Source of the DNA: a virus | Strand: one strand, 5' to 3' | IMG/VR virus record: IMGVR_UViG_3300042549_002930 | Span: 1-35,306 of that record | DNA length: 35,306 nt | Shown: in pieces, positions 26,329 to 35,306 of the stretch | Layout of the letters: each line of letters starts with the position of its first letter | How positions within the stretch are numbered: position 1 is the stretch's first letter | Position numbers and translations under genes: made by a program | The notes under the pieces: model-generated | The model's input: the letters and a program-made list of their open reading frames with translations, nothing else | Databases searched by the model: none | What the model was told of the DNA's origin: nothing

Positions 26329-26811
26329 TTAAGTTATTGATTTATTGGATAAAAGAAAATTCTGATATTTTTCATAGAAGTCAGCAAAGTTTTTTACTAT
26401 CCAGTACTGACCACCAGACCTTTCGATAGCTTCTTGGTATATTTTCTGATCATCTGACTGTCTGTCTCTGCCTATCTTTACCTCTATCTTTACCGACCTA
26501 CCAAGAATTGTAGCTGAAATATCCGCTGATCCTTTGGTTGCCGTTGACTTGCCCCAGGTCATAGTTCCAATAGTCTTTGTTCTGCCTACTACATCAGTCA
26601 CTTGCTTCCGATTGTCTATTGGCCTACCCATAGTGTTAATTCGTTCCGCTTGGTATCCACTAAGCTCAAGGAACTCCTTTACGCATTTGGTTAGTCCATT
26701 GGCTGTCTTATCCTCGTACTTTGGCGCTGAAATAGCATACTTGGGCACATTAGGATAGGATTCTAGCATCGACTGTTGCTTGAGTTGTTTAAGAATGTCA
26801 AGTGGTTTCAT
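26329..26811 (-). CDS. VRR-NUC-like nuclease
   Basis: A 160-residue protein whose C-terminal half carries the PD-(D/E)XK pattern of VRR-NUC enzymes: KGSADISATILGRSVKIEVK (about residues 92-111, with Asp at 96 and the E-x-K pair at 109-111) and QKIYQEAIERSGGQYWIVKN. Such nucleases resolve branched DNA in phage replication. Residues 1-60 are less conserved. It overlaps the methyltransferase stop by 14 bases, so the two are coupled, but it is probably not a restriction partner. Confidence 0.8.
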   Translation of the reverse strand: MKPLDILKQLKQQSMLESYPNVPKYAISAPKYEDKTANGLTKCVKEFLELSGYQAERINTMGRPIDNRKQVTDVVGRTKTIGTMTWGKSTATKGSADISATILGRSVKIEVKIGRDRQSDDQKIYQEAIERSGGQYWIVKNFADFYEKYQNFLLSNKSIT

Positions 26812-27679
26812 ATTGTTCGATGGCTTTAAATATCTGATATACTACTTGTGGAACTATTGCGTTTCCTCCGGCTTTGATTGATTCGTTTCTCCATTTAGGA
26901 AAGGTAATAGAGTCCAGTCTGTCGGAAAGCCCATCATCTCCATCACAAATTGGGGAGACAGTTGGGAACATTTGGAAGTTTGTTCTAAATAATTTATTGC
27001 ATCCTTTAAATTGTTGTTTATTGGATTGTGGCCTTTTCTTGGAGAATTCCCCCTCCTGCCCGCTTTCATGTCCATAGCGCAAGGGGTTGGAAGCATTTTG
27101 TTTGTCCATCCAGAGTTGTGTTCCAAATGTCTCAGAGAATAATTCTTTTCTTGAACTGTGCTTACAAAATCCGATGCTTGAGGAGTAGGAAGCATTGTAG
27201 GCAATAAACCAAATTCTATCTCTTCTGTGGGGAGCGTTGACGGCACAAGCTGGAAGTAGAAACGGTGTGACTTCGTAGCCTTGAGTTTCCAGTTCAGCCT
27301 GCACTTCGTCGAATACCAACCCTCCATTCCAATTAGTAAGCCCACGAACATTTTCGCCCACGACCCAACTTGGCTGAATCTCTCGAATTGCTCTAAGCAT
27401 CTCCGGCCAGAGGTGTCTCGAATCCTCTTTTCCAAGTCTCTTTCCTGCGGATGAATAGGGTTGACAAGGGAATCCACCTGTAAGGATGTCAATTGATCCT
27501 CTGTGAATAGTGAAATCTGTCTTTGTGATGTCATGATAAGTTAATGATTTAGGCCAGTAATATTTTAAAACTTTTTGTCCGAATTCATTCCATTCGCAAT
27601 GGAAAACATTTTCCCATCCAATCCACTCCGAGGCTAAATCAAAGCCTCCAATACCTGAAAATAAAGAACCGTGTCTCAT
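26798..27679 (-). CDS. C5 cytosine DNA methyltransferase
   Basis: A 293-residue enzyme that would methylate cytosines in a specific DNA site, probably to protect phage DNA. Motif I LFSGIGGFDLA (residues 6-16), IV GGFPCQPYSSAG with the catalytic Cys72, VI ENVRG (Glu109), VIII RRDRIWF (152-158), and motif X AGGNAIVPQ near 273-281 are present. The target-recognition region (about 165-265) is short and Asn/Gln/Ser-rich. No restriction gene is nearby. A second reading frame inside this gene (26854-27534) also looks like a conserved protein. A G-tract separates it from the previous gene. Confidence 0.93.
   Translation of the reverse strand: MRHGSLFSGIGGFDLASEWIGWENVFHCEWNEFGQKVLKYYWPKSLTYHDITKTDFTIHRGSIDILTGGFPCQPYSSAGKRLGKEDSRHLWPEMLRAIREIQPSWVVGENVRGLTNWNGGLVFDEVQAELETQGYEVTPFLLPACAVNAPHRRDRIWFIAYNASYSSSIGFCKHSSRKELFSETFGTQLWMDKQNASNPLRYGHESGQEGEFSKKRPQSNKQQFKGCNKLFRTNFQMFPTVSPICDGDDGLSDRLDSITFPKWRNESIKAGGNAIVPQVVYQIFKAIEQYETT
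26854..27534 (-). CDS. Overlapping ORF inside the methyltransferase gene
   Basis: A 226-residue frame, +1 relative to the methyltransferase and wholly within it, contains a pattern I recall from many phage proteins: SGRRCLEQFERFSQVGSWAK, MFVGLLIGMEGWYS, FYFQLVPSTLPTEEIEFGLLP, LPTPCAMD and LSPQFVMEMMGFPTDWT. The last motif is also known as a C-terminal feature of some phage C5 methyltransferase proteins. It lies in the part where the methyltransferase frame encodes its poorly conserved target-recognition region, so chance shadowing is unlikely to explain the whole pattern. It may be a real protein, an alternative product or the trace of an ancestral frame. Confidence 0.5.
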   Translation of the reverse strand: MTSQRQISLFTEDQLTSLQVDSLVNPIHPQERDLEKRIRDTSGRRCLEQFERFSQVGSWAKMFVGLLIGMEGWYSTKCRLNWKLKATKSHRFYFQLVPSTLPTEEIEFGLLPTMLPTPQASDFVSTVQEKNYSLRHLEHNSGWTNKMLPTPCAMDMKAGRRGNSPRKGHNPINNNLKDAINYLEQTSKCSQLSPQFVMEMMGFPTDWTLLPFLNGETNQSKPEETQ

Positions 27680-27688
27680 AATAAAATA

Positions 27689-27701
27689 GGGGGGGGGTGG
27701 G
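27689..27701. repeat. G-tract G9TG3
   Basis: Nine G, T, three G on the plus strand, between two minus-strand genes. Identical to the tract at 32530-32542. Confidence 0.9.
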
Positions 27702-27705
27702 TAAA

Positions 27706-27927
27706 TTAGAATGGTAAATCAAAAGCATCTAAATGGTGATGTGGCCAATAATAATCTGTTCCAAACCTGCATAGGTATTCAAATGCAAGTACCCTATTTG
27801 CTTCTCTCATTTTTAGCCAAATCCCTTGGGTGTATGTCTTATCGTAATCTCCAGGTCTTGCTTCATTAAACTTATCCCAGAATACTTCAAATGGAATTTC
27901 GGATATTTCGTCTAGTGCTTCAATCAT
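27706..27927 (-). CDS. Small protein with DLPF C-terminus
   Basis: A 73-residue protein: an acidic start (MIEALDEISEIPFEVFWDKF), a helix QGIWLKMREANRVLAFEYLCRF (given as pieces QGIWLKMREAN and RVLAFEYLCRF), and the end HHHLDAFDLPF. The terminal DLPF repeats the SSB-like tip seen in the 104-residue protein at 25982-26296. It overlaps the primase-helicase stop by four bases (ATGA), so it is probably a replication accessory. Function unknown. Confidence 0.65.
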   Translation of the reverse strand: MIEALDEISEIPFEVFWDKFNEARPGDYDKTYTQGIWLKMREANRVLAFEYLCRFGTDYYWPHHHLDAFDLPF

Positions 27928-30131
27928 TTCTTTAAGTGTTTATAAATCGTTGTTCTACTTACATTTAATAATTCTGCTAACTCAGAGCGGTTAAAATTAG
28001 GAATGGTCCTGTTAATCATCTCAATTTTCTTTTCTATAGACTCATTTTTCATAGACCTAATTATTTCACTAAGCTCATTAGATTCCAAGCTACTTACCTT
28101 AATCTTCTTAGACATTGCAATAAAGTAGTTACTTAACTTCTCTGCCTTCAGCAATGAATCCTTAGTTACAAAATCAAAGTTCTTGCTTGTCTCAAATGAC
28201 CAGAGCGTATTAATCAACAAAGCAAATCTAGGTACATAAGCTTTTTGCTTACTCAACATTGACTTTACATATTCCGATATATCATCCGAGTTCTGCAAGT
28301 CAGTAATGTTGTTAAATATGCGCTCCCATTCAATATCTGCTTGGCTATCAAATTTAATTATTCTACTCTCAATTTCTCCAAACTTATTGTACTGCAATAC
28401 TTGGTTTCTGACTAGGTTATAGAACTGACTAATGTAAGCCTCGTACCAGTCCAATATTTCTTGGTCAATTGAGTTCTTGTTGTAGTGTTCAATCTCCTTA
28501 TCAGGGTAGCTAACAAGTAATCTGTCTAGGAATCCATTGTCTTTGTTTTCCATAGTTGAAATCTGAGAAAATATACCAGGTTGTATACCACCTAGCACAG
28601 GAATCAATGGACTAGCAACAAAGCTACTTTTTGTAGACTTTCTAGTAAGAATTGCTGCTTGGTTTGACCAGCATGAGAGCCAAAACTCGAGATCAGAGCC
28701 AGGCTTATATTTATTCATGTCCTTAATCCAACCGTTCAATTCATCCTTAAATACCGCAATACCTACTTGATTTTCTTCGTGCAAATCCGCTAAGGCTTCT
28801 ACGGTAATGTCATTAACTATCAACTGCTTCCTTACAGGCTCCTTAATTTCCTCTACATCCTTTTTATCCTTTGCAGTCAACTTTTCGTATTCCTTGTACT
28901 TCTTATACTCGTTCTGGTAGTGCTTAATTTCAAAGCTATTCTTCTTAGAAATCGGGAAGATGATGGCATTAATACTAGGTGTTTTTCCTAGTCCAGCCTT
29001 ACCAATTAATCCTATCCAGATGTTGCAAGATTCTCTCCAACCTGTTTTTACCTCTACCTTGCAAGCGTTACCAATGCAAAGAGACAAAAGCCAAAGCAAT
29101 GAACTACCCATGTAGTCAATAGAATGATTAAGTGTTTTCTGATTTAATAGAATATAACTCTGCAATGACTCTGGGAACACATCAATAGGAAATATTAAAT
29201 CCTCCTGTGGAATATCAATCTTCTCAATTTCTACCTTGCGAATCTTCCGCTCTCCATATCCTTCCTTGTAAAGCTCTTTTGCAGCCATTGAGAAGTCTCC
29301 GTTAAAGTACTTGTAAGCATAGATACTAAAAGGAGTTAAAGGTGTCTCATGAGGGTAAATCGTGGCCGTAGTAAAGAGATAACACAATCCGCTATCCTTG
29401 TATATAAATCCATGCAAGGCATCCTTAGAATTAGTTTTTCTTATCACTATGCGATCCGTTAGGTGCTTAACTGCGGTAAACTCATTTGCAATTAAATCTA
29501 GGACTCTGTTTCTATGATTGTAATCTTGCCAAGGTGTTAATCCGCTATACTCTGTATTTTCCACCTTAGCTTCTACCTTGGCTTCATCGTAGTTAAAGTA
29601 CCTGCACAATCCAAAGAGAATCTCTCGCTCCTGCTCTGTAATCTCCTGCACCTGCTCATAAGATAAGTCAGATACTTGATTATCGTAGATGTAGATGTAC
29701 CCACCTGTTCCCCTAGTTTCAATTAACGCTTGAGAATGTCCCTTAAGTGTTGCAAGCTTTCTGTTTCCATCTACCTTAGAGCATCGGTATATTATATGGT
29801 AGCCTGAATTTATAGTCTTATATATTACAAACTTTCTATTAAAGTCATCAATATAATCTGATATAAAAGAAATAAAGTCACTCCAGAACTTCTTTCCGTC
29901 TTGGATCGTTGGAAATACCTTTAAGTCTACATCTATACATTCAACATCGTAAAAACCTGTTATTATACCGTATCCTTTGGTCTTGTGTTCAAGCTTCTCT
30001 AACTCTGACTTTTCTATCTTTTTTGTCTGGTATTCCTTCCATAAAATCAAAGGTTTTTTACCCTCCGATATAGGCATTACGCTGAATCCTGAGTTCAGTA
30101 AATTAATTGCTCTTCCTAGTGTTACGTTCAT
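27924..30131 (-). CDS. Prim-pol / DUF3987 replication protein
   Basis: A 735-residue replication protein. Residues 1 to about 190 form a bifunctional primase-polymerase-like domain (ECIDVDLK acidic metal site at about 64-71; SGYHIIYR at about 108-115; LIETRGTGGYI near 136-146). From about 300 to 560 it is a DUF3987-type ATPase with Walker A GKAGLGKT (about 373-380) and Walker B-like IAVFKDELNGW (about 451-461). The end (NRSELAELLNVSRTTIYKHL) is a helix-turn-helix. It should prime and unwind DNA at the phage origin. The iteron region 30182-30451 lies directly upstream of its start. Confidence 0.88.
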   Translation of the reverse strand: MNVTLGRAINLLNSGFSVMPISEGKKPLILWKEYQTKKIEKSELEKLEHKTKGYGIITGFYDVECIDVDLKVFPTIQDGKKFWSDFISFISDYIDDFNRKFVIYKTINSGYHIIYRCSKVDGNRKLATLKGHSQALIETRGTGGYIYIYDNQVSDLSYEQVQEITEQEREILFGLCRYFNYDEAKVEAKVENTEYSGLTPWQDYNHRNRVLDLIANEFTAVKHLTDRIVIRKTNSKDALHGFIYKDSGLCYLFTTATIYPHETPLTPFSIYAYKYFNGDFSMAAKELYKEGYGERKIRKVEIEKIDIPQEDLIFPIDVFPESLQSYILLNQKTLNHSIDYMGSSLLWLLSLCIGNACKVEVKTGWRESCNIWIGLIGKAGLGKTPSINAIIFPISKKNSFEIKHYQNEYKKYKEYEKLTAKDKKDVEEIKEPVRKQLIVNDITVEALADLHEENQVGIAVFKDELNGWIKDMNKYKPGSDLEFWLSCWSNQAAILTRKSTKSSFVASPLIPVLGGIQPGIFSQISTMENKDNGFLDRLLVSYPDKEIEHYNKNSIDQEILDWYEAYISQFYNLVRNQVLQYNKFGEIESRIIKFDSQADIEWERIFNNITDLQNSDDISEYVKSMLSKQKAYVPRFALLINTLWSFETSKNFDFVTKDSLLKAEKLSNYFIAMSKKIKVSSLESNELSEIIRSMKNESIEKKIEMINRTIPNFNRSELAELLNVSRTTIYKHLKK

Positions 30132-30143
30132 TTTTGTGTTTTA

Positions 30144-30178
30144 CAAAGGTTTATAGAAAAAGGGCATTTTTGGTCAAA
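30144..30178 (-). promoter_or_regulatory. Putative promoter for the replication operon
   Basis: Minus-strand AACCTTTG (30151-30144) is one base from TAnnTTTG, and TTTG (30178-30175) lies 23 bases upstream, slightly long for a Bacteroidota promoter. The leader TAAAACACAAAAATG follows. The nine-base word CCTTTGTAA is shared with 172-180 and 261-269 near the divergent control region. Confidence 0.35.
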
Positions 30179-30181
30179 AAA

Positions 30182-30451
30182 GTGTACACAAGTGTACAGT
30201 TAGTTTACACCTAGTGTAAACCCCCCTAAAGTGCCAATGAGCTTAAATTAGGGGGATTTTAGGCCGTTTTTTGCCATAGGTTTACAAGTTTACACTTTTT
30301 TTTATAATCTATTTTTTTTGGCTAGGTAAATTTTTATTTTTTTTCATTTTTGCCAAAAAGTGTTCAAAGTGTTCACTTATTGTGATTGGAGCCAATGGAG
30401 GCCTATTTTGGTTTACACTTAGGTGTACACTTAGTGTACACTAGTGTACAC
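30182..30451. repeat. GTKTWCAC iteron array around an AT-rich core (origin candidate)
   Basis: Twelve copies or near copies of GTGTACAC/GTTTACAC/GTGTTCAC start at 30182, 30192, 30203, 30214, 30280, 30288, 30360, 30369, 30411, 30423, 30434 and 30444. Within the two main clusters the spacing is 10-12 bases, one helical turn. GTTTACACCTAGTGTAAAC (30203-30221) is an inverted repeat with a three-base spacer, and CCCCCTAA/TTAGGGGG (30222-30229 and 30248-30255) forms a further hairpin. Between the clusters (about 30296-30355) is an almost pure A/T stretch. The array lies between the HTH gene and the replication gene and overlaps the HTH stop codon. Confidence 0.85.
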
Positions 30452-30887
30452 CCTCCTTCCGTGCTTTTCTCACCCAATGTGAGACTTTATTGTAGTCTAA
30501 ATTCATCTCTTTTGCTATGTCGCAAGTCCTTATGTTTTGCGCTACCATGCTCTCTATTTTTCGTACTAATTTTATAGATAGAGGTTCTATTCTTCTACTA
30601 GGTACTAGCTTTATGATTTCGCACAAATGATGGTATTTTACACCAGCTATATACATAATTTGTTTATATGGTAAGCCTTTAAGATATAATTCAATGACTT
30701 GATCGGCATCCTTCATGTAAGAGCAGGTGTTCTTGGCCCTTTCATTGGTAAGCAGATAGTCTTTATATATATAATTATTTACTATGTGCCTACTAATATT
30801 TAAAATAGTTGCTATATTTTTATTCATTACTTTAAGTTTATATAGCCTGACTATCTCGTCTTTTTGTATCTGGTTTAGTGATGTCAT
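30441..30887 (-). CDS. Multi-HTH DNA-binding protein
   Basis: A 148-residue protein with three helix-turn-helix-like segments: IVRLYKLKVMNKNIATILNI (about residues 12-31), VIELYLKGLPYKQIMYIAGV (about 64-83) and VAQNIRTCDIAKEMNLDYNK (about 114-133). It could be a regulator or the protein that binds the adjacent GTKTWCAC repeats, since its own stop codon lies inside that array. No integrase or transposase motif is seen. It is preceded by a G-tract (30897-30910). Confidence 0.7.
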   Translation of the reverse strand: MTSLNQIQKDEIVRLYKLKVMNKNIATILNISRHIVNNYIYKDYLLTNERAKNTCSYMKDADQVIELYLKGLPYKQIMYIAGVKYHHLCEIIKLVPSRRIEPLSIKLVRKIESMVAQNIRTCDIAKEMNLDYNKVSHWVRKARKEGVH

Positions 30888-30912: not shown

Positions 30913-31122
30913 TCATTTCTTTCCGTAGGTTTCTTCGTAGTAATTATGACCACTTTCGTAGGTTTTTACTGCATAGAACCAAGCACCTTCTCTATGAGCG
31001 TCTGCAATCTGTTCTCTCTCCTTATACTTAGCTATTTCTAGTATTTCCTTGGAAGACTTACCGTCAAACCAAGTGGAAGTTAATTGCTCATGAATCCATT
31101 CTACTGCCGTCTGCTTTTTCAT
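30913..31122 (-). CDS. Small conserved phage protein, unknown
   Basis: A 69-residue protein, QTAVEWIHEQLTSTWFDGKS..., with EILEIAKYKEREQIADAHREG and the end YYEETYGKK. This AVEWL...QI.DA...YY.ETFG pattern is frequent in small proteins of Bacteroidota phages and has no known function. It overlaps the exonuclease stop by four bases. Confidence 0.7.
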   Translation of the reverse strand: MKKQTAVEWIHEQLTSTWFDGKSSKEILEIAKYKEREQIADAHREGAWFYAVKTYESGHNYYEETYGKK

Positions 31123-31718
31123 ATTCCGATTCCGTTTAAATATTCTCTACATTCCAATACTTTTGCTTTCGCTGTTTCAATTACTTCTGGATCATAATCG
31201 ATATCAAATTCCTTAATTCTGTATTTATTTTCCACGTGCGCGTAGCTTACTGGCTCCTCGTAAGTCAAAAACTCTGGAGTGTCCTGAAGCGTGTAAACCA
31301 ATTTGGCCTTTTTTAAGCCTGTCAGGTGCATATAAACCTGAAGTTGATAGAAGTACCCATTATCAGGCTGATCGTCGAACAGAGGAAAGGTGAAGCAGTC
31401 CCAAGAGGTTTTAAAGTCATAGACTATACCATCGTGGAAACAATCGGGAGTTCCTGTGAAGAAATCATCTTCGAATTTGTCCAGATTTTTAATCATAAAG
31501 TCCTTTTCCATAGCTACCGAGTAAAACTCAATAGCTTGATCTTCCAAAGCCAATCCTTTTTCGATGTACTTGGACTTAATTTGCTTTTTTACGCCGTAAA
31601 TCTGCTCTTTGTACCATTCTTGTAAATAACTTTTTGTCGTTTGAGACAAAGTTTCTGTTTTACTACGTGCGTTAGTCATCAAATGACCAAGGGCGCTTGC
31701 TCTACATTTAAAGTTCAT
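31119..31718 (-). CDS. YqaJ-like recombination exonuclease
   Basis: A 199-residue PD-(D/E)XK nuclease: KGLALEDQAIEFY (Glu of the helix near residues 54-66), FFTGTPDCFHDGIVYDFKTSW with the catalytic Asp in GTPDC and the D-F-K triad near 100-103, and QLQVYMHLTGLKKAKLVY (about 124-141). It would resect DNA ends in the 5' to 3' direction and hand single strands to the annealing protein encoded just upstream in the same operon. It overlaps that gene by four bases and the next small gene by four. Confidence 0.85.
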   Translation of the reverse strand: MNFKCRASALGHLMTNARSKTETLSQTTKSYLQEWYKEQIYGVKKQIKSKYIEKGLALEDQAIEFYSVAMEKDFMIKNLDKFEDDFFTGTPDCFHDGIVYDFKTSWDCFTFPLFDDQPDNGYFYQLQVYMHLTGLKKAKLVYTLQDTPEFLTYEEPVSYAHVENKYRIKEFDIDYDPEVIETAKAKVLECREYLNGIGI

Positions 31719-32248
31719 GATAATAATAGTTTTTCGTTTTGTGATGTTAAAATATAAACCGACTTAATTTGGTCTAGCGTTACTTTTCCACTAGCTAGAG
31801 AATCTTTTGCTCCGTTCCACTTTACGTGCGAAGGATTTAACTCCTCTTTTTTACCGCCGTGATCGTTGGTTGAATCAGGGTCTTTTGTATCATCGATTAA
31901 AAGGAGACCCGAGAGCGCATACTTTCGAGCATAACTTGATGAGCTTCCGAAACTTTGCGCCACATCCATACCCTTGCGGTTGATGTCGATGCCTGCCTGG
32001 GCAGTAACTGCTCTGCCTTCAGTTCTGCCTTCTTTGTCTATCTGTATAGATACAGTACTTTCTATGAATACAATACCACCAACCTCTTTAACCTCATCCT
32101 CGATAGTCAAGGTGCATTCATACTTCAGAAGCAATGGCTTAAGAGCCTCCAGAATGTCCTCGCAGTTGCGATACTTGTACTTGCCAAATGCATTGAATTG
32201 GCTCTTGGGAGCTTTTAGCTCGTTTTGAATTGCAATTAGTTCTTTCAT
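31715..32248 (-). CDS. erf: ERF-family single-strand annealing protein
   Basis: A 177-residue ERF superfamily recombinase. It has the family pattern SQFNAFGKYKYRNCEDILEA (about residues 17-36), LKPLLLKYECTLTI and GMDVAQSFGSSSSYARKYAL (about 93-112), then a charged linker. It would anneal homologous single strands during phage recombination, paired with the following YqaJ-like nuclease. The TAAAAC-type leader precedes the start; a 23-codon ORF ends in an overlap with it. Confidence 0.9.
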   Translation of the reverse strand: MKELIAIQNELKAPKSQFNAFGKYKYRNCEDILEALKPLLLKYECTLTIEDEVKEVGGIVFIESTVSIQIDKEGRTEGRAVTAQAGIDINRKGMDVAQSFGSSSSYARKYALSGLLLIDDTKDPDSTNDHGGKKEELNPSHVKWNGAKDSLASGKVTLDQIKSVYILTSQNEKLLLS

Positions 32249-32517: not shown

Positions 32518-32712
32518 TTAGGAAAAAAAGGGGGGGGGTGGGTATTGTTTTAGCGTTTTAATTTCAGCGTATGGGAAATTAAATTGATCCCAGTACAATT
32601 CAAATGTTTTCATTATCTCGATTTTTTCACTATCGGGTAGTATCCCGTAGTTCTCAAGTATCCATTCACTTATGATTTCCTCTACCATTTCCGATCCATT
32701 CATTTGAAACAA
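32518..32712 (-). CDS. Hypothetical protein ending in a poly-Pro run
   Basis: A 64-residue protein (MFQMNGSEMVEEIISEWILENYG...), acidic and helical. Its C-terminus PPPPFFS is produced by the G-tract G9TG3 (32530-32542) read in reverse; a length change of that tract would move the frame and alter the end of the protein. It overlaps the HTH-like gene upstream by 47 bases. Confidence 0.55.
   Translation of the reverse strand: MFQMNGSEMVEEIISEWILENYGILPDSEKIEIMKTFELYWDQFNFPYAEIKTLKQYPPPPFFS
32530..32542. repeat. G-tract G9TG3
   Basis: Identical to 27689-27701. It lies inside the last codons of the 64-residue minus-strand gene. Confidence 0.9.
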
Positions 32713-32863
32713 AAACTACCCATTGATTTCCTAGCTTTCTAGGCGGATACACCCATTCAGGTGGATGAACTCCAGATCGAATAATCTGGTGAACTCTTGT
32801 TGATTTTTCACTAAAGCCACGCAATACTCCGTATTCTGTGGCGGTCATCATTTCGTAAAGCAT
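32666..32863 (-). CDS. Small HTH-like DNA-binding protein
   Basis: A 65-residue protein with TATEYGVLRGFSEKSTRVHQ then IIRSG and RKLGNQWVVFV, which matches the MerR/excisionase-type HTH_17 layout (helix-turn-helix followed by a wing with GN-x-W). It could regulate early transcription or, as the only excisionase-like protein, be a remnant; no integrase is present. It overlaps the gene upstream by 16 bases. Confidence 0.6.
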   Translation of the reverse strand: MLYEMMTATEYGVLRGFSEKSTRVHQIIRSGVHPPEWVYPPRKLGNQWVVFVSNEWIGNGRGNHK

Positions 32864-33087
32864 AATTGTACGTTGGTTTCTAATTGTTCAATAATAAAAG
32901 GGTCAAGAATTGCGCAAACGACTTTGTAATGATCAGAGAATTTTTCTGTTAAACAGTCGTAAAGTTCTAGCGTGAGAGATTTTCCACTACCGAAATAAAT
33001 GTCTAAGACAATTCCTTCGTTCTCGAAAGATTCCAGCTCCAGGCTGAAACCAGATTTCTCATAAATAAATTGGTGATCTTTTAGCAT
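32848..33087 (-). CDS. Hypothetical protein
   Basis: A 79-residue protein (MLKDHQFIYEKSGFSLELES...). The ATG at 33087 is preferred over an upstream ATG at 33123 because the conserved TAAAACAATCACACAAA leader and the promoter-like unit at 33113-33142 end just before it. It contains FGSGKSLTLELYD, a chance Walker-like piece without a Walker B partner. Unknown function. Confidence 0.6.
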   Translation of the reverse strand: MLKDHQFIYEKSGFSLELESFENEGIVLDIYFGSGKSLTLELYDCLTEKFSDHYKVVCAILDPFIIEQLETNVQLCFTK

Positions 33088-33112: not shown

Positions 33113-33142
33113 TAAATGTACAAACTGTTGTATTAATTGCAA
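33113..33142 (-). promoter_or_regulatory. Putative early promoter downstream of the repeat array
   Basis: Read on the minus strand, TTGCAATT (TTG 33142-33140) followed after 19 bases by TACATTTAC (box 33120-33113) matches the early promoter at 140-170 (TTGCAATT, then TATATTTAC). The first unit of the repeat array (33167-33176) lies about 25 bases upstream. Confidence 0.5.
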
Positions 33143-33166: not shown

Positions 33167-33605
33167 TTTTCCACTAGCGGTAATTTATTTGTTTGATCGG
33201 TTTTATTTTCCACTACATCCTGGGAAATTATGTTTTCCACTACTGGCGCGATCCAGTTTTATTTTCCACTACTGGTTTTATTTTCCACTACTGGTTTCGT
33301 CTACCGTTTTGCGCTGGTTCTGTTTTCGTCTACTCATTTTGTTTTCGTCTACTGGTTGTATTTTCCACTAGTTATATTTTTTCAGGTCGCGATTTGCGAC
33401 TGCAAATAAATTACATTTGATGACATGGTTTTATTTTCCACTAGGTATATTTTTCCCTTGTATTTTCCACTACTGGTTTGGGTTTCGTTTTTCACTAGGT
33501 TTTATTTTCCACTAGGTATTTGGATTTCGTCTACGGATTTCGTCTACGGATTTGGCCCGCTGTTTTTTACTACGGGTTTCGTCTACTGCTTTTGGTTTCG
33601 TCTAC
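33167..33605. repeat. Two-state 11-bp repeat array TTTTC(CA/GT)CTAC, 18 units
   Basis: Nine exact TTTTCCACTA units start at 33167, 33206, 33233, 33262, 33281, 33361, 33434, 33463 and 33505. Seven units of the second type, (N)TTTCGTCTAC, start at 33294, 33323, 33342, 33524, 33537, 33576 and 33595. Two variants are at 33488 (TTTTTCACTA) and 33563 (TTTTTTACTA). Distances between starts cluster at 13, 19 and 29 bases. CTGG often follows the unit. An inverted repeat GTCGC-gattt-GCGAC (33386-33400) interrupts the array. No credible gene covers it (region 33143-33701). Confidence 0.9.
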
Positions 33606-33701: not shown

Positions 33702-33723
33702 AACGGGCTAAAATACGCCCGTT
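33702..33723 (-). terminator. Hairpin terminator after gene 33726-33914
   Basis: A perfect seven-base stem AACGGGC/GCCCGTT with an eight-base loop follows the stop codon by two bases on the minus strand. The downstream sequence is T-containing but has no strong T-run, so it may end transcription only partly. It isolates the repeat array from the upstream operon. Confidence 0.55.
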
Positions 33724-35270: not shown

Positions 35271-35306
35271 AATGAGTGAGTGAGTGAGTGAGTGAGTGAG
35301 TGAGTG
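35180..35306. repeat. Terminal direct repeat, right copy (circular overlap)
   Basis: Exact repeat of bases 1-127; see the left copy. Confidence 0.95.
35273..35306. repeat. Tetranucleotide repeat (TGAG)8.5, right copy
   Basis: Second appearance of the repeat at 94-127 due to the circular overlap. The window ends inside it. Confidence 0.85.

Follow-up and report, generated by a model that had tools for sequence, protein, structure and literature searches.

What is the function of 18 short direct repeats lying immediately upstream of an early promoter in a viral genome? The window analysed here, a 35.3-kb virus record taken in full, carries such an array (array 1) between a stem-loop that follows the upstream genes and the promoter of down79 (Table 1). 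Genes from about 24.1 kb to the end of the window lie on the minus strand, and down79 and HTH65 open an early operon that continues with recombination genes (ERF annealase, exonuclease). The initial annotation had offered three ideas for the array: an iteron-type replication site, an operator or enhancer of the early promoter, and a decoy. The second is the best supported of the three, by virtue of a near-fixed distance to the promoter, a single orientation, quasi-helical spacing and co-occurrence with a winged-helix gene, HTH65, which that annotation had already named. We propose that array 1 is a multi-site operator for the down79-HTH65 early operon with HTH65 as its candidate binder, a reading based on sequence comparison, structure prediction and analogy to which we give an even chance.

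Table 1. Coordinates of the features discussed in the text (strand as in the record; a dot marks an element given no strand).
Feature	Position	Strand	Description
Primase-helicase	27924-30131	-	Prim-Pol/DUF3987, C-terminal HTH
Array 2 (separate element)	30177-30451	.	GTGTAAAC/GTGTACAC repeats flanking A/T-rich core, directly before primase-helicase gene
HTH148	30441-30887	-	two HTH motifs
RecE-like exonuclease	31119-31718	-	
ERF annealase	31715-32248	-	
HTH65	32666-32863	-	65 aa; winged helix-turn-helix by prediction; candidate binder of array 1; top match among solved structures, lambda Xis-DNA
down79	32848-33087	-	first gene after promoter, 79 aa, without known family
Early promoter, Bacteroidota type	33113-33142	-	TTG (33142-33140), 19 bp, TACATTTA (33120-33113)
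Array 1	33167-33605	-	18 direct-repeat units nTAG-XXX-AAA(A)CAAAA, read on minus strand
Promoter-proximal block	33167-33290	-	five TGG-type units, TTTTCCACTA at 33167, 33206, 33233, 33262, 33281
ACG-type block	33295-33352	-	three units, TTTCGTCTAC at 33295, 33324, 33343
Second TGG-type block	33361-33514	-	units 33361, 33434, 33463, variant 33488, 33505
Distal ACG-type block	33525-33605	-	units 33525, 33538, variant 33563, 33577, 33596
Stem-loop, terminator-like	33702-33723	-	after upstream minus-strand genes; array 1 boundary

Three other features of the window were recorded. A TGAG repeat of 8.5 copies is found near both record ends (94-127 and 35273-35306), and may represent the terminal overlap of a circular assembly or a repeat-caused break. 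Two long overlapping reading frames on the minus strand, 26854-27534 within 26798-27679, each match a DNA methyltransferase family: PF00145 for the main frame and, with E 3e-20, phrog_1008 for the overlapping one. A nine-C tract (minus strand), preceded by CCCA/CCCT, recurs at 27689, 30897 and 32530, and in two cases a start codon (27679, 30887) follows its end by about 10 bp; similar C tracts precede other genes in relatives, and slippage or a regulatory element is possible.

On the minus strand, along which the early genes are transcribed, the unit of array 1 reads nTAG-XXX-AAAACAAAA; it is about 19 bp long, and adjacent units follow a 19-bp period. The 18 units of the initial annotation were recovered as described, with nine exact CA-type units (TGG centre on the minus strand), seven GT-type units (ACG centre) and two variants, TTTTTCACTA at 33488 and TTTTTTACTAC at 33563, and its positions for the promoter and the stem-loop are also correct. 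In Markov shuffles of the region, CA- or GT-centred units numbered 0.02 (at most 2 in 5000), versus 16 observed, and matches to TTTnnnCTA 0.9 (at most 6), versus 18. Several details had to be revised. The GT type, described as an 11-mer, is a 10-mer whose fourth T is present in only 2 of 7 units, and the conserved unit is longer than either, approximately nTAGxxxAAAACAAAA on the minus strand. The two types, reported as interspersed, are ordered as five CA, three GT, five CA-like and five GT-like units, i.e. 4 runs versus about 9-10 expected, and the supposed two states become five centres across relatives (TGG, TGT, ACG, TAT and AGT). Among the reported spacings, 13, 19 and 29 bp do occur, the first limited to a few GT-type pairs, but the full set in the window is 13, 17, 19, 25-29, 39 and 73 bp. 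The noncoding character of the array was upheld: plus-strand frames consist of the repeats themselves, and in relatives spacer lengths shift out of frame with no reading frame kept, so that a coding reading was rejected. A search for structured RNA at array 1 gave no Rfam match up to E 1. A further unit at 32979, within the down79 codons for GSGKS, is probably a chance match and was not taken as an array member.

Relatives were gathered in scans with the primase, down79, HTH65, ERF and the array unit, and removal of identical sequences left 105 upstream regions from a group of uncultured phages. These stem from one lineage, often from short contigs, with several loci on the same contig and duplicates removed by sequence only, so that counts do not represent independent events. 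Array 1, against which the initial annotation would have counted its absence or a loss of spacing in close relatives, withstood this check, being present at the same place in all 105 distinct upstream regions, with 3-22 units (median 7) as counted by exact patterns, which miss degenerate units. Forward orientation is shared by 950 of 954 units, the other 4 being reverse. Centre triplets on the minus strand are TGG (437), TGT (288), ACG (122), TAT (47) and AGT (38), others being rare; a TAA centre has 33 matches, mostly in a conserved non-array stretch near the stem-loop. As in the window, site classes lie in blocks (mean 4.1 runs versus 7.5 expected). Counted from the promoter, the first two units of every array have TGG or TGT centres, as do units 3-5 with three exceptions, while ACG, TAT and AGT units are placed farther away.

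When the unit is defined strictly, as TAG followed by any of the five centres and AAAA[CT]A, the relatives' records contain 693 copies within the array; in the 858 kb outside it there are 20 forward and 17 reverse copies. One conserved coding position accounts for 14 of these 20 forward matches; the lone unit 455 bp into the operon that 14 relatives share falls within a conserved reading frame and was rejected as an array site. All 17 reverse matches come from two records (L101, L267) of one contig with a second, inverted copy of the region. This contig, IMGVR_UViG_3300020043_006644, contains HTH65 twice and a pair of oppositely oriented arrays, and is probably a chimeric or inverted assembly. 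Searching nine long records for TAGTGKAAAACA returned one cluster, plus one match at a coding position in record G002, and single matches to unrelated viral contigs in the collection scan were set aside as chance. No annotated relatives of the region, HTH65 or down79 were found in the phage collection of 50,697 annotated records.

The geometry relative to the promoter is also largely conserved. In the window the last array unit starts about 34 bp upstream of the promoter TTG. The promoter of the relatives (TTG, 19-21 bp, TAnnTTnn) is conserved together with the leader of the first gene and is close to the Bacteroidota consensus with its TAnnTTTG -7 box (PMC9723704). Most relatives have 88-98 bp between the start of the last unit and the ATG, one clade 78-83 bp; where the last unit is degenerate (8 regions), the distance of 128-131 bp is that of the next unit outward. 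The last gap equals 39 bp in 78/105 regions, and the centre of the last unit falls near -60. Neighbouring units mostly follow one another at 19, 27, 29, 39 or 17 bp, and none one helical turn apart (9-11 bp) were seen in array 1. Independent spacers, i.e. gaps of 22-70 bp counted once per unrelated spacer sequence, favour a periodicity of roughly 9.6 bp (p ~2e-4, or 1.4e-3 if spacers are clustered more strictly). Helical phasing is thereby suggested rather than proved: this value lies close to one helical turn, yet it amounts to half the unit length of 19 bp as well and could in part stem from duplication of units. For the host, the only pointers are the type of promoter and an A-rich leader preceding the ATG; in GTDB no genome encoding a relative of the primase was found and ERF matches remained below 60%, so that the host was not identified through relatives.

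Which protein might read these sites is suggested by co-occurrence. In the set of contigs that include an ERF relative and sufficient upstream sequence, an array of at least four units is present in 89 of the 90 that encode down79 and HTH65, the remaining one having three units, and in none of the 46 lacking these genes, including seven with an ERF at least 80% identical. In one relative, L357, whose ERF and primase are about 71% identical, the promoter is shared (CTTGC...TACTTTTACATCA) but other genes follow it, and both the array and down79/HTH65 are missing. The array and the down79-HTH65 pair thus behave as one module, although within a single phage lineage such co-occurrence does not amount to many independent events. 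HTH65 has no match in Pfam, PHROG or NCBIfam, an HTH_17 match (E = 0.14) appearing in one member only, and 45 sequences show no variation in its helix EKSTRVHxIIRSG or its wing GNQW. The AlphaFold model from these sequences (pLDDT 86) comprises a strand, helices 8-15 and 20-30, a beta hairpin and a helix, and its first PDB match by Foldseek is lambda Xis on DNA (probability 0.96, E 0.13), a weak E-value as may be expected for 65 residues. An earlier model from 10 sequences was poor (pLDDT 73); the matches to RepE that it gave, none of them significant, were discarded.

Xis-like proteins and the 68-aa BldC bind asymmetric direct repeats cooperatively and bend DNA (PMC7498355, PMC5859096), the repeats being 9-11 bp apart for BldC and phage 186 Apl (PMC5859096, PMC7498355), and Apl represses early promoters from seven operators located between them (PMC7498355). 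The genomes checked yielded neither a tyrosine nor a large serine integrase, which fits a regulatory role rather than excision. Taken with the module and the fold match, these points make HTH65 the best candidate for the binder, with down79 next. We infer from them the binding, its cooperativity and the sign of regulation in the following scheme. HTH65 made from the operon would dock on TAG-XXX-AAAA units, one protomer per site, with its recognition helix near TAG and its wing in the A-tract. Further protomers would add head to tail at roughly one helical turn, such that spacings of 19, 29 and 39 bp would hold two, three and four steps, and the resulting filament would end at a set position beside the promoter and tune it. 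Negative autoregulation after build-up of HTH65 appears most likely, activation being about equally compatible with the anatomy. Several points speak against this reading: the E-value of the Xis match is weak and no sequence family confirms HTH65, the units are mostly at least 19 bp apart, versus 9-11 bp for BldC and Apl sites, and up to 22 sites go far beyond the need of simple repression. We also considered, as an idea quite unlikely to be right, that the five ordered site classes constitute an affinity ladder for one small filament-forming protein. Weak distal sites would then fill late, so that the array would measure HTH65 concentration, and with it phage copy number or time, and the recombination/replication operon would be switched at a set point.

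The array could also act as an enhancer-like element for another protein, be it down79, HTH148 or a host factor, which we hold to be possible but rather unlikely. Class I activators follow a distance rule that fits a site near -60, where the proximal unit is centred, and the co-occurrence data are equally consistent with down79, which accompanies array 1 wherever contig ends permit, as strictly as HTH65 does. Yet down79 has no recognisable DNA-binding motif, HTH148 falls to about 50% identity between phages with a common array unit, and sites at further phage promoters, which a host factor should have, were not seen. The clustering of many sites in variable copy number (3-22) might instead point to titration of a host or phage regulator, but titration needs neither ordered classes nor a near-fixed promoter distance; we hold a decoy to be very improbable, and nothing favours the version of the initial annotation, with two related proteins titrated. 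The same promoter distance is left unexplained if the array is a fork roadblock or a nucleoprotein platform from which the ERF and exonuclease of the operon start concatemers. Such a role would resemble that proposed for G38P at SPP1 oriR (PMC6316719) and would suit the strictly directional sites and the presence of both enzymes in the operon; all in all we judge it improbable.

An iteron-type origin, at which an initiator would bind (for instance the primase-helicase, which has a C-terminal HTH), would account for near-helically spaced direct repeats, each about 19 bp, next to a region of 73% A+T, an arrangement with the look of plasmid iterons. The A+T-rich stretch is the promoter itself. 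No TTWTNCACA box lies in or near array 1, and the DnaA-box likeness noted initially is not supported. Silent-site GC skew gave no clear answer on origin placement, with no clean switch at array 1. The primase-helicase gene is 3 kb away, behind a repeat region of its own, array 2, which is far better conserved (85% identity over 66 distinct sequences, versus 43% for 450 bp of array 1), the gene preceding it falling to about 50% identity across relatives. Moreover, L357, with a primase 71% identical, keeps the promoter but neither array 1 nor the two genes. These observations weaken the iteron idea for array 1, and array 2 is judged from its sequence to be the likelier replication origin. Among more distant phages, similar repeats precede the primase in L359, and other repeat words in L357 and L361-L367. 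Five relatives (L361, L362, L364, L365 and L367) combine a related ERF (70-87%) with a different replication module, and clusters of TAATGTAAATG repeats resembling array 2 lie about 3 kb further on. Annotated relatives of the primase in the phage collection are distant only, with about 30% identity or less over at most half the length. In SPP1, two origins have direct repeats and an A/T-rich element (PMC6316719), so that array 1 might conceivably serve as an auxiliary origin or as a barrier to forks; as one of two origins or the only one, array 1 seems to us an unlikely candidate.

With the operator bound by HTH65 as the preferred reading, array 1 offers a regulatory element that is conserved and simple to clone, and for which one protein can be named as candidate, and array 2 a testable candidate replication origin for the same phages. 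If HTH65 binds, the binding mode of excisionases and BldC would extend to long, ordered arrays of graded sites, and it could be tested directly how the number and order of sites serve phages in timing their early genes.

Among known systems, the MerR-like BldC of Streptomyces is a small winged helix without dimerisation domain, with an A/T-rich half-site, that assembles into head-to-tail cooperative filaments on asymmetric direct repeats of variable number at promoters (PMC5859096); HTH65 on array 1 would resemble it in these respects. The BldC repeat is 9 bp with 2-4 protomers per site, whereas the units of array 1 measure about 19 bp, fall into five classes and number up to 22, and no sequence family connects HTH65 to BldC. 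Of the excisionases lambda Xis, 186 Apl and P2 Cox, which bind direct repeats about one helical turn apart, Xis on DNA is the best structural match of HTH65, but array 1 lies upstream of its promoter rather than across it, and neither an integrase nor an attachment site was seen. Iterons of the kind bound by RepE, lambda O and SPP1 G38P are phased direct repeats beside an A/T-rich stretch; array 1, also directly repeated next to such a stretch, differs from them in having no recognised initiator gene or DnaA box and a better origin candidate elsewhere in the genome. The stoperators of mycobacteriophages are also asymmetric sites in one orientation relative to transcription, yet they are scattered over the genome, unlike the single cluster of array 1. 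The pairing of array and protein is new to the collections searched, and the principle of direct-repeat binding by excisionase- or BldC-like proteins is one already known.
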